Origin: Candidatus Parcubacteria bacterium
Lineage (GTDB): Bacteria > Patescibacteriota > Minisyncoccia > Phycocordibacterales > PALSA-1337
Direction of reading: 5' to 3'
Assembly (NCBI GenBank): GCA_028286835.1
Contig: JAQBQT010000013.1
Coordinates: 1-37,198, forward strand
DNA length: 37,198 nucleotides
A program made the position numbers and the translations under genes. The notes beneath the pieces were generated by a model. The model was not told where the DNA came from and did no database searches. It saw only the letters and a list, made by a program, of their open reading frames with translations. Position 1 is the first letter of the stretch; every line of letters starts with the position of its first letter. Shown one piece after another: positions 22,439 to 36,794 of this stretch.

Positions 22439-22515
22439 AGTTATGACACGTTAGCATGAATTATGAAGGCGCGCAAGTAATTTAAACTTGTCCAAAAGAT
22501 CATGTTTTGCCTTTA

Positions 22516-22548
22516 TTGACACACTTGGAATATTATTATAATATCCAA
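22516..22548 (+). promoter_or_regulatory. sigma70-type promoter with overlapping imperfect palindrome
   Basis: TTGACA-N17-TAATAT; TTGGAATATTA-TTA-TAATATCCAA inverted repeat (one extra A) at 22525-22548. Confidence 0.7.
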
Positions 22549-22605
22549 AATAGTTTATGCACTTTAACATTCACATTTCTCAACCTACAACCCCAGGAGC
22601 AACAT

Positions 22606-23682
22606 ATGTCCAGAATGCAATGGAGCAAACAGATCGTGGTTCGCCACATCAAAATGCGACATCGGAATGGGCAAAGGCTTAATTCCAATTACATGCAGAC
22701 AAATTGTCGGCCGCTTTATTTAGCTGGCTGCAAATATTATGGAAGCTGGCGGAAAAGCATCACGGCTGCAGGTCTTTCCTATGATCAAGTACGTGTTCTT
22801 AAACGCACATGTCTAGTATGGAGTGAAGAAAAAATTCTAGCCTCAATTAATCTCAGAAATAACCTCAAGCAGCCTCTTAACTCAAATCATCTCCAAAAAA
22901 AGGAAACGCGCCTCTATATGGCGGCGATTAAATATTTTGGTGGGTGGGCACAAGCAATTGCAGCAGCTGGATTAAATTATTCCAAACTTCGCAAGAAGGA
23001 GCCAATGAGACGTTGGTCAAAAACCACAATTGTAAAGGAAATACTTCGGAGATACCGATGTGGCTTATCAGTCAGAGGCTTCGATGTCTCTCAGCAAGAC
23101 AGAGGACTTTATCAAGCGGCTCGACGGCATTTTGGTGAAGGAGGCTGGGCACAAGCTCGAATATGTGCTGGTTTTGATCCGACAGATCCTCTTCCCTGGA
23201 AAATCTGGGACAAAAAAACTGTTTGTATGGAAATTCAGCGCCTTCAGAAAATTGAAATACCACTCAGTACAGGCTCTTTGAGAGACAGTTCATACGCCTA
23301 CATTCTCAGTGCGGCTTCAAAAGTATTTGGCAGCTGGGCAAAAGCAATACGTGAGAGTGGCTTGGACTATTCAAAAATCAGAAAAGGACGCCAACCGGGA
23401 TGGTGGACAAAACCACGCATTCTTATGCGTATAAGGTATCTCGAGAAGTTAGGCATGCGCCTGAGTCACAGATCCATACAAGATAGTCATTGTGATTTGC
23501 TTGGAAGTGCTATAGCTCATTTCGGATGCTGGAGCCAGGCCGTTGAATCTGCGGGTATACCCTATCAGGCACATTGTCGAGTATGGTCAACCAAAGCCTG
23601 GCTACGCAGAATGCAAGATGACGAATATCTTCTAATGCTCAAAAAAGCAAAAAAACACGCAAGAAAAAGGAGTAACAAATGA
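22606..23682 (+). CDS. protein of five tandem ~63-aa HTH-like repeats (plus a partial sixth)
   Basis: Repeated pattern W[S/T]K..I...I......L...........LY.AA...FG.W..AI..AGL.Y; SD AGGAG before ATG 22606; ORF-track start 22507 overlaps the promoter. Confidence 0.75.
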   Translation: MSRMQWSKQIVVRHIKMRHRNGQRLNSNYMQTNCRPLYLAGCKYYGSWRKSITAAGLSYDQVRVLKRTCLVWSEEKILASINLRNNLKQPLNSNHLQKKETRLYMAAIKYFGGWAQAIAAAGLNYSKLRKKEPMRRWSKTTIVKEILRRYRCGLSVRGFDVSQQDRGLYQAARRHFGEGGWAQARICAGFDPTDPLPWKIWDKKTVCMEIQRLQKIEIPLSTGSLRDSSYAYILSAASKVFGSWAKAIRESGLDYSKIRKGRQPGWWTKPRILMRIRYLEKLGMRLSHRSIQDSHCDLLGSAIAHFGCWSQAVESAGIPYQAHCRVWSTKAWLRRMQDDEYLLMLKKAKKHARKRSNK

Positions 23683-24713
23683 AACGTCAGCCGGTACTAC
23701 TGAGTTCAGTAACAGATCAGATATGTCAGATTCCTATTGATAAGATCAGGGAATCTCTCGTGACTCTTCGTACAGAATATGACGAGGAAGGACTCAAGGA
23801 ATTGGGTGAGTCTCTCGTCGACCAAGGCCAACTTCAGACAATTGTTGTTCAACCAGATGACAATGGTTATTATGACCTTGTCATCGGATCACGTCGGCTT
23901 CGAGCAGCAAAGCTCAAGAAAAAGAAGGAGATTGCGGGATTCATCATAGAAGCAAGACGTCCCGTCGAACTTCTACTGATCGCTCTCGCTGAGAATCTGC
24001 ACCGTGCGGACCTCAACCCCTTCGAAGAAGCTCAAGGGTTTCTCAGACTCATGAAAGAATTTGAGTTATCTTTGGGTGAAATCGCCGAAGGTGTAAACAA
24101 GCCGGAAAGTTACATTCGTTCTCGCCTCCAATTACTTAGCATGCCAGAGGAAGTGATGAAAATGGTTTCAGAGAAAAATCTTCCCATCAACAGCGTACGA
24201 ATACTCGCACGACTGTCCAGTGGAAAAGACCAGGTACGTCATGCGCGTATGGCGGTGAAGCACCATCTCTCTCAACAAGAGTTGTCTGCTCAGGTACAAC
24301 AGGAACTCGAAGAGCCTGCAAGGAAGGAACGTGAGTCATATGAGCTCACTTCAGTAAAACTAATTGCCCGAGTGCGTCAATTCACTCAATTCATGGAAAA
24401 AGTACCTCGACGGATGAAGATGCACCACCTGAATGCTACAGAAAGACGCTTTGCGACAGAGGCTCTCAAAAAACTGGAAGACAAAGCAAAATTACTGCTG
24501 GAAATAATCAGCAATAACTCAGCAATGTCCATCCCCAGATCAGGAGACGCAGAACCTGAAGCTTCTAATCAAGGGCAAGAATGGACCGTAAAAGAGATTC
24601 GTCGAATATCCTCCGGTACTCGACCTTCGGACGAAATACTTTCTGCAGAACTGGGCCGTACAGTACAGGCCATTAGATCGATGCGAGCAAAGATTTCTGA
24701 GAAAGTAGGGTGA
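23679..24713 (+). CDS. ParB/RepB-like nuclease-fold/CTP-clamp protein with divergent C-terminus
   Basis: IPIDKIRESLVTLRTEYDEEGLKELGESLVDQGQLQTIVV; IGSRRLRAAKL; ENLHRADLNPFEEAQGF; HTH ELSLGEIAEGVNKPESYIRSRLQLLSMPEEV; C-terminal EWTVKEIRRI...ILSAELGRTVQAIRSMRAKI. Confidence 0.88.
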   Translation: MKRQPVLLSSVTDQICQIPIDKIRESLVTLRTEYDEEGLKELGESLVDQGQLQTIVVQPDDNGYYDLVIGSRRLRAAKLKKKKEIAGFIIEARRPVELLLIALAENLHRADLNPFEEAQGFLRLMKEFELSLGEIAEGVNKPESYIRSRLQLLSMPEEVMKMVSEKNLPINSVRILARLSSGKDQVRHARMAVKHHLSQQELSAQVQQELEEPARKERESYELTSVKLIARVRQFTQFMEKVPRRMKMHHLNATERRFATEALKKLEDKAKLLLEIISNNSAMSIPRSGDAEPEASNQGQEWTVKEIRRISSGTRPSDEILSAELGRTVQAIRSMRAKISEKVG

Positions 24714-24730
24714 AAAATGTGACTGGAGAT

Positions 24731-24764
24731 AACCGCTTAACGTAAGTTAGGCGGTTTTTTATTT
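24731..24764 (+). terminator. intrinsic terminator closing the repeat-protein/parB-like operon
   Basis: AACCGCTTAAC-GTAA-GTTAGGCGGTT then TTTTATTTT. Confidence 0.88.
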
Positions 24765-24776
24765 TGCCTGAATCGT

Positions 24777-24925
24777 CAGCAGAAGGAGGGCATATGGTTC
24801 TGAAGGACATTTCGGAGCTGACGCACACCGTCAGACAAATACCATCCTTCTATGCGTCAGCGAGAACTAGATGCGCCCAAAAGGCGACATCGTGTCCAGA
24901 AGAACCATATGCCCTCCTTCTGCTG
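24777..24925. repeat. ~149 bp element bounded by perfect 25-bp inverted repeat
   Basis: CAGCAGAAGGAGGGCATATGGTTCT (24777-24801) and exact reverse complement AGAACCATATGCCCTCCTTCTGCTG (24901-24925). Confidence 0.92.
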
Positions 24926-28893: not shown

Positions 28894-29060
28894 AGGCACC
28901 TATCTATTCACGGAGTTATTCCTTAAAAAAGATTTCCAGGGTCCCGAACATCGCGCCTTATGGCCGAATAGAGGACACCGCCTTATGATCTTCGGAAATT
29001 TCTCCTGATGTAGGTCAGCCTACCCTATGGCAACAAAGCCCGCTCCTGCGGGCTTTGTTG
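28894..29060 (+). ncRNA. candidate structured non-coding RNA (family unknown)
   Basis: Promoter-like TTGACC-N16-TAAAAT (28859-28886), no good ORF, end-to-end helix AGGCACCTA (28894-28902)/TAGGTcaGCCT (29011-29021), inner helix AGATTTCC/GGAAATTT, then 13-bp hairpin 29031-29060. Confidence 0.5.
29031..29060 (+). terminator. terminator-like hairpin
   Basis: CAACAAAGCCCGC-TCCT-GCGGGCTTTGTTG, perfect 13-bp stem, weak U-tract. Confidence 0.65.
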
Positions 29061-29147
29061 CATATGGGTTTTACAGCCATGCTTTTTTATAGTACTCTAG
29101 CGCGCAGACTCTCGACTCAACACATTCCCTGTTCTTTACCTAGTTCT

Positions 29148-29729
29148 ATGAAAAATAAACTGCTCAAGTTGTCCCCCTTCTTGCTCGTCGCTTCTGTATT
29201 TATAGGATACGGATTCTATCGAATGGTGGAGCCTCTGGAATGGAAAGACCGTATTGTCGAAGCTAACTTCGGCTTAATTACTTCTTACATTCTGGTAAAT
29301 AAGCTACCTGATGGATCGTACTTCTTTCCTGAAGCTCTCTCGTTACGAGGGACCACCATAGCTGTTCCTCTGGATAAATTCAAGGCTCTGGCCGCTCAAG
29401 GAGAAAAAACCACTATCCTCATACTAAACAAGCCGATCATACAGATTTACTATCTGACAAGTATAAATGGGTTGACCTACCACGCGCATGCAGCCTTTCC
29501 CAGTTGGGAAGATAACCTCTCGCTCAATAGCGCCAAGACCACGATCAAGAATAATGACACTATCTCCTATTACTATTCTGTGTCTGGCTGGGATTCAATG
29601 CTCCATGCCCTTGGCGGCCTGGCAGTTGTTTCAATAGGAATTATAATAGTGACAATCGGAGTCATGGTTACAAGCAGTCGAGTCCATAAGAAAGTGAAAG
29701 CTTTTTTGGAAGTTCAAGCAGTATCTTAA
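29148..29729 (+). CDS. hypothetical protein with two TM segments
   Basis: MKNKLLKLSPFLLVASVFIGYGFYR...; C-terminal ALGGLAVVSIGIIIVTIGVMV; followed by terminator. Confidence 0.6.
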   Translation: MKNKLLKLSPFLLVASVFIGYGFYRMVEPLEWKDRIVEANFGLITSYILVNKLPDGSYFFPEALSLRGTTIAVPLDKFKALAAQGEKTTILILNKPIIQIYYLTSINGLTYHAHAAFPSWEDNLSLNSAKTTIKNNDTISYYYSVSGWDSMLHALGGLAVVSIGIIIVTIGVMVTSSRVHKKVKAFLEVQAVS

Positions 29730-36389: not shown

Positions 36390-36794
36390 TTAGCAAAAAA
36401 TTTCATTTTCCACATAATCGACTTCTTCCATATCACTTTTGTTTATATATTCCCCTGGAGCTGTCCCCTCATTCATACCTTTAAATGACCCACCTTCATG
36501 TACCTCATATAACATGTCATTAAAGTGTTTAATCCCTGGATAATTTTCTGTGCCCTCATAATCATTTATACTTCGTGAACAACATGCACATGCTCCGGGA
36601 TCTTTACGTTTTGTTTCTGCCAATATTTCAAATTTGTTCGCAGGTATTGCTTTCTCTTTGGCTAAAGGAATAAGGATAACATCTCCGACTTTCGTAGGAA
36701 TGTGCTGAATACCTGTAAAACCAGGACCACCACCACCAACACATTTAAGGATAGAATCTACTTTTGTTTTTATAATTAAACATTTAGTTTGCAT
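36390..36794 (-). CDS. hypothetical Cys-containing protein in an AT-rich segment
   Basis: 134-aa ORF with its own promoter and terminator; motif DPGACACCSRSINDYEGTENYPGIKHF. Confidence 0.65.
   Translation of the reverse strand: MQTKCLIIKTKVDSILKCVGGGGPGFTGIQHIPTKVGDVILIPLAKEKAIPANKFEILAETKRKDPGACACCSRSINDYEGTENYPGIKHFNDMLYEVHEGGSFKGMNEGTAPGEYINKSDMEEVDYVENEIFC

Follow-up and report, generated by a model that had tools for sequence, protein, structure and literature searches.

What might a ParB-like protein do when no parA lies beside its gene and that gene overlaps the end of another encoding a repeat-array protein? The question is raised by a pair of genes in a 37,198-nt stretch of DNA (GenBank assembly GCA_028286835.1, contig JAQBQT010000013.1, positions 1 to 37,198; hereafter the window) from a Candidatus Parcubacteria bacterium with a genome of 698 kb in 27 contigs. 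A first-pass annotation, made from the sequence of the window, had described the pair as a self-contained transcription unit and had left its role among silencing, partition, regulation and action against mobile elements. The present analysis points to a probable role for the cassette in gene control and not in chromosome segregation, since rare and distant relatives retain both genes and have an alternative sigma factor in addition.

Layout and insertion site of the cassette

The coordinates of the cassette and its expression signals are as follows.

22475–24925 (approximate extent): inserted cassette, between rpmE (L31, minus strand, start codon 22438) and an MFS gene (24954)
22516–22544, plus strand: sigma-70-type promoter-like site, TTGACA-17-TAATAT, its support being positional only
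22525–22549: imperfect AT-rich palindrome over the −10 region, a possible operator; weak, with arms pairing at 10/12 bp
22606–23682, plus strand: array gene (HNH_repeat protein, 358 aa), from the ORF call and a Pfam match
23679–24713, plus strand: accessory ParB-like gene (344 aa, protein P0002), from the ORF call and Pfam, NCBIfam and structure matches
24731–24756, plus strand: intrinsic terminator, 11-bp stem and T-tract
24777–24925: 149-bp foldback with 33-bp arms (91% complementary) and an 83-nt interior, assigned to the cassette by position only

Both open reading frames, their shared ATGA (23679–23682) and the Shine-Dalgarno sequence were present as annotated, with an AGGAG at 22595–22599, 5′ of the array ATG, and another 5′ of the ParB start. 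The strong terminator reported after the ParB gene is sound. The annotated promoter is plausible, being well placed 5′ of the array gene, but promoter-like sites are not enriched in the sequence (4 found versus 3.9 expected from shuffles). The palindrome over its −10 region was matched in score by 45 of 300 shuffles. The description of a self-contained unit was borne out but had omitted the foldback, which lies within the segment. This element (DNA fold z = −10.2) is the only close inverted repeat of at least 20 bp in the window and is single-copy in the host genome; it matched no Rfam RNA family, no plasmid and no viral sequence.

The 2.5-kb array–ParB segment is a laterally acquired insertion, as had been suspected from its base composition. 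This follows from the arrangement in 14 same-genus loci, where rpmE directly adjoins the MFS gene with a gap of about 60–210 bp; the remaining same-genus loci did not show rpmE within the locus limits. The separation of rpmE and the MFS gene in the window is 2.5 kb. The MFS gene is core in the genus (31 of 34 genomes, that of the window included), and the array was absent from all 33 same-genus genomes searched. The reported AT-richness relative to the neighbours was confirmed, the array and ParB genes having GC contents of 0.44 and 0.46 and GC3 values of 0.38 and 0.41, as against mostly 0.6–0.8 nearby; in codon usage, few genes of the window resemble the host less. No target duplication was found at the cassette ends, the exact positions of which are not defined. 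A viral or plasmid origin was considered and gained no support: searches of viral contigs and phage records yielded no closely related array, and those of plasmids only distant ones. Strongly atypical codon usage was also observed for two other window genes, at 36390–36794 (GC3 0.22) and 29055–29729 (GC3 0.45). Separately, a different HNH_repeat array in a UBP13 MAG (L044:7983–11263) adjoins rpmE near prfA, like that of the window, perhaps by coincidence.

Recurrence of the array–ParB pair

Relatives were sought by a scan of one genome per species. The first was found in G439 (locus L041, a 1.0-Mb MAG), where an array 39% identical over its full length is followed by a ParB gene starting 4–13 bp after it. 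A profile built on the window and G439 arrays led to two further members, in G445 and G484. With the window genome (G000), the array subfamily is present in four of the 384 sampled genomes of the window's class; these span three families, G439 and G445 belonging to the same genus. A ParB gene lies directly downstream of the array in all four, at spacings of −20 to +13 bp. No ParB match was obtained for about 30 other HNH_repeat loci (flanks of up to 8 kb, several being much shorter), and neither an array nor a sigma gene was found near 80 viral ParB loci. The array–ParB pairing is real, recurrent and genuinely conserved as a coupling within the array subfamily. A neighbourhood survey had been proposed with the first-pass annotation, which took rare co-occurrence as evidence against a functional pair; co-occurrence is the rule within the subfamily.

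The absence of a ParA and plasmid context described for the window extends to the relatives. Inspection of the ORFs of the window and of the relatives' operon neighbourhoods revealed no recognisable parA, and plasmid backbone genes were found beside none of the four copies, all of which sit among chromosomal genes. An operator or parS-like site common to the four operons was looked for upstream and none was found. A shared operator was rejected on three counts: the window palindrome is within chance, that of G439 is different and L084 and L085 have nothing comparable. The G439 operon is itself preceded by a perfect 12-1-12 palindrome (TTTGTCAAGGCACTGCCTTGACAAA, L041:2191–2215), unequalled in 300 shuffles and absent at the other operons. 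Nor was a foldback comparable to that of the window found at the other three operons.

Array identity across the three families is 27–41%, with the five-unit layout of the protein and the ParB pairing kept. Comparison of G439 with G445 gave identities of 41% for the array, 53% for ParB, 59% for the sigma factor described below and 69% and 80% for two flanking genes. The array therefore diverges fastest within this genus, as expected if the array target changes. This divergence also suits a role in defence or silencing of mobile elements, in which the array would recognise invading DNA and the clamp would coat and silence it, and so does the patchy, laterally acquired distribution. PADLOC matches for the array and ParB are, however, no better than marginal, and no defence-gene neighbourhood surrounds the operons. 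A defence role for the cassette is possible, has no direct support and is considered distinctly unlikely.

The array protein

The array protein matched the Pfam family HNH_repeat (PF18780) with E=5e-14 (52.7 bits versus a cut-off of 26) and consists of five full units and a basic C-terminal tail.

22618–22815, plus strand: repeat unit 1, aa 5–70, from the unit alignment and a four-helix unit in the AlphaFold model
22816–23010, plus strand: repeat unit 2, aa 71–135, unit alignment and AlphaFold model
23011–23202, plus strand: repeat unit 3, aa 136–199, with a distinctive FG(E/K)GGW insertion shared with G439 and G445, unit alignment and AlphaFold model
23203–23400, plus strand: repeat unit 4, aa 200–265, unit alignment and AlphaFold model
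23401–23580, plus strand: repeat unit 5, aa 266–325, unit alignment and AlphaFold model
23581–23679, plus strand: C-terminal basic helix, helix 329–357 in the AlphaFold model

The repeats noticed previously are statistically real, but they belong to this named family and are not an unrecognised module. Each unit is modelled as four helices at high confidence, with flexible linkers between units (mean pLDDT 81.8); the overall shape of the array and the orientation of its units are undefined in the model (pTM 0.30). All four subfamily arrays are strongly basic (pI 10.0–10.4, net charge +32 to +45), the window array having a pI of 10.4 and a net charge of +45. No solved structure in the PDB significantly resembled the chain (best E=0.06), and a demonstration of DNA binding by HNH_repeat units was not found in the literature searched. 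The GGW insertion of unit 3 and the end of unit 5 are conserved in three of the four arrays, indicating that at least three of the four are orthologous unit by unit.

The Pfam title of the family, 'homing endonuclease associated repeat', points to another origin, in which the array once served a homing endonuclease as its targeting part and the ParB gene is a hitchhiker. Some array-like matches on archaeal plasmids carry the annotation HNH endonuclease, and the inserted cassette has a foldback at one of its ends. Against this, domain profile searches of the array and ParB proteins gave no match to an HNH, GIY-YIG or LAGLIDADG nuclease domain, the cassette has no nuclease, integrase or transposase, its reading frames are intact and its foldback is single-copy and without a target duplication. 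A degraded fragment, as envisaged in the first-pass annotation, is also at odds with the five-unit layout shared by the relatives. Since this architecture and the ParB pairing are conserved across three families, at the array identities given above, without any nuclease, a homing-element remnant is very unlikely.

The accessory ParB protein

The ParB-like identity of the second gene product was confirmed by every comparison made. In the window ParB, domain matches were obtained to HTH_ParB (PF17762, 1.9e-18) and ParB_N (PF02195, 1.3e-14), and these two domains are present, in this order and well over cut-off, in the window ParB and its three relatives. Among NCBIfam models, TIGR00180 (ParB domain) matched at 5e-30 and Noc at 2.2e-35, the latter below the Noc cut-off, and solved ParB structures matched at 7.5e-30. 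The structure model of P0002 was poor (pLDDT 54) and was left out of the analysis.

23718–24002, plus strand: ParB_N CTP-binding domain, aa 14–108, PF02195 1.3e-14
23886–23897, plus strand: G-S-R-R motif, aa 70–73, with Ser replacing the Glu of GERR in an alignment with other ParBs
24009–24305, plus strand: HTH_ParB domain, aa 111–209, with a recognition helix unlike those of chromosomal ParBs, PF17762 1.9e-18
24564–24704, plus strand: extra C-terminal domain, aa 296–342, 47% identical to G439:C15:50559 and 40% to G050:C1

The four accessory ParBs were aligned with 37 others, mostly chromosomal proteins of Patescibacteria. The GERR position reads GSRR, GSRR, GSRR and GARR in the accessory proteins and GERR in 36 of the 37 others, the lone exception being a very divergent ParB-like protein with GEGR. 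In all four accessory ParBs, the first of the CTP-hydrolysis glutamates (GERR) is replaced by Ser or Ala and the second (EN) is retained, while the predicted nucleotide-binding motifs (the GxRR arginines and ENxxR) are kept. The equivalent glutamate of Bacillus subtilis (E78) is needed for CTP hydrolysis and dispensable for clamp closure, and segregation in the absence of Smc depends on this hydrolysis (PMC8494293). Loss of the GERR glutamate is a tendency and not a signature of accessory ParBs, as a third or more of viral ParB-like proteins also lack it.

The recognition helix reads NKPESYIRSR in the window ParB where chromosomal ParBs have GKSREYVSN; because of this replacement, binding of a canonical parS by the accessory ParB appears unlikely. 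The window contains no match to TGTTTCACGTGAAACA at up to three mismatches. An LG(R/K)GL N-terminal motif for ParA binding is missing from all four accessory ParBs and likewise from the Patescibacterial chromosomal ParBs (L003–L031). The host genome encodes a second ParB on contig C16 (G000:C16:19322), and derivation of P0002 from it was rejected on an identity of 34% and separate placement in the tree. In this tree, the accessory ParBs are separated from the Patescibacterial chromosomal ones, with weak support for their own grouping of four (61/40). The C-terminal domain of P0002 is absent from the other three accessory ParBs and is related to small stand-alone Patescibacterial proteins, such as those encoded at L075:1495–1767 and G050:C1:86043 (40–47% identity).

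Membership of the ParB family suggests a role in the segregation or maintenance of an integrated element, for which the array would bind a centromere-like site, perhaps the foldback adjoining the operon, and ParB would form the partition complex. A lone ParB could borrow the chromosomal ParA of the host. Such a role is nevertheless quite improbable, since neither a ParA nor a parS nor a plasmid context was observed, and all four accessory ParBs lack a residue for CTP hydrolysis, the reaction that ParABS relies on in B. subtilis (PMC8494293). The foldback, moreover, has no counterpart at the other operons, and partition leaves the sigma gene of the relatives unexplained.

A sigma-70 gene in third position

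The gene after ParB in G439, G445 and G484, that is in three of the four genomes and two lineages, encodes a sigma-70 factor with regions 2, 3 and 4, at a spacing of −17 to +13 bp from the ParB gene. A separate sigma gene adjoins dnaG elsewhere in each of these genomes. Location beside dnaG is the usual arrangement of a primary sigma gene, and the operon sigma-70 is, on account of this other gene, an alternative sigma factor. In G484, the third gene (L085:7504–9648, 714 aa) combines in one frame a full sigma-70 with a complete RNase III, including its dsRNA-binding domain. In the window genome, the only sigma match lies on another contig, and the cassette has no sigma gene. As a side observation, G439 gave seven sigma-like matches, a large number for a genome of 1 Mb, and two of its alternative sigma-70 genes lie close together at L131:2681–5260 (G439:C8).

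Fusions of HNH_repeat arrays to sigma-70 region 3-like domains occur at two other Patescibacterial loci (L033:1468–2991 and L034:334–1383), and a 2025 survey reported ParB-fold proteins fused to Sigma70 domains (PMC12704722). The array, ParB and sigma families thus meet repeatedly. The sigma genes found within a few kb of the L043 and L045 arrays were treated as neighbours by chance, and that beside the L035 array was set aside for its different architecture, L035 being a helicase fusion. In PADLOC, the operon sigma proteins matched MzaA; this match was discounted as probably due to the sigma domain alone, since it is confined to the sigma region.

Proposed role of the cassette

Transcriptional control is the closest mechanism, given that an alternative sigma-70 follows the pair in three of four genomes and that arrays are fused to sigma domains elsewhere. 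The first-pass interpretation is supported in part and is modified in this respect. As the window copy lacks a sigma gene, this link rests on the two other lineages.

The reading that we favour, at a little under an even chance, is control of transcription by a ParB-type clamp that the array directs to particular DNA. The five-unit array would be a modular DNA-binding protein reading an extended DNA address, on which the co-translated ParB may close as a nucleotide-dependent clamp. The array would load, position or lock this clamp at its address, and the clamp would then change the access of RNA polymerase to nearby promoters, blocking or helping it. In the fuller version of G439, G445 and G484, the operon would supply its own alternative sigma-70, the promoters of which would be steered or gated by the array–clamp pair. 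The laterally acquired version of the window, without a sigma gene, may act on the housekeeping polymerase.

A more specific proposal, which we regard as unlikely, is a transcription system of three parts, observed to date only in Patescibacteria: the array would specify the address, the nucleotide-switched ParB clamp would load at it, and the clamp would in turn recruit or gate an alternative sigma factor of its own. The window cassette would then be a reduced form that arrived by horizontal transfer. In function, such a system would be comparable to the clamp-coupled late transcription of phage T4, with a partition protein as its building material.

Co-occurrence of array and ParB in an operon, known from three independent lineages, is no proof of physical interaction. 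A serious alternative, if a rather unlikely one, is that the proteins are co-regulated and bind DNA independently, the array acting for example as a repressor of the operon and ParB and sigma as separate effectors. Arrays elsewhere stand alone or bear a different helix-turn-helix domain, and the array protein of a Brevibacillus plasmid is annotated as a helix-turn-helix regulator. Independence sits less well with the adjacency in fixed order that is kept across divergent lineages, and with the window genome, where the pair forms a unit without sigma.

Relation to known systems

The repeat, ParB and sigma families and ParB-type control of transcription are already known, and no description of the conserved array–ParB(–sigma) combination was found in the literature searched (open-licence papers). 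KorB of plasmid RK2 is a ParB-family clamp that controls transcription with the clamp-locking protein KorA (PMC11790492). The proposed clamp-based control of transcription resembles KorB–KorA in pairing a ParB-family clamp with a separate, co-encoded partner, for which DNA binding is predicted here. It differs in that this partner is a multi-unit HNH_repeat array without homology to KorA, the setting is a Patescibacterial chromosome, three genomes add an alternative sigma gene and contact between array and ParB is postulated. VirB of Shigella flexneri, a ParB-like transcription regulator and anti-silencer, has, like the accessory ParBs, only one of the two hydrolysis residues (PMC10770331), and also resembles them in retaining nucleotide-binding motifs and in having no paired ParA; unlike them, it acts from DNA sites of its own, has no array partner and controls a different regulon.

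The chromosomal proteins Noc and Spo0J/ParB gave the best NCBIfam alignments and structure matches of the window ParB, whereas the accessory ParBs have GSRR or GARR in place of GERR, an altered recognition helix and no parA gene nearby, and the window has no parS. With other PF18780 proteins the window array shares the repeat unit itself; it differs from them in having no HNH nuclease and in belonging to a specific subfamily tied to ParB. The ParB-fold–Sigma70 fusions likewise link a ParB-type switch to sigma-70, but these are reported to bind ATP (PMC12704722), and in the present operons the genes are separate and the array comes first.

ParB-type switches are increasingly seen beyond segregation, but for few of them has a partner been identified that directs them to their sites of action. 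The conserved array–ParB pair, together with the operon sigma factor, makes this question testable with just two or three proteins. Should the array units read DNA in modular fashion, this would also suggest a possible role for orphan HNH_repeat arrays, which occur across both bacteria and archaea.
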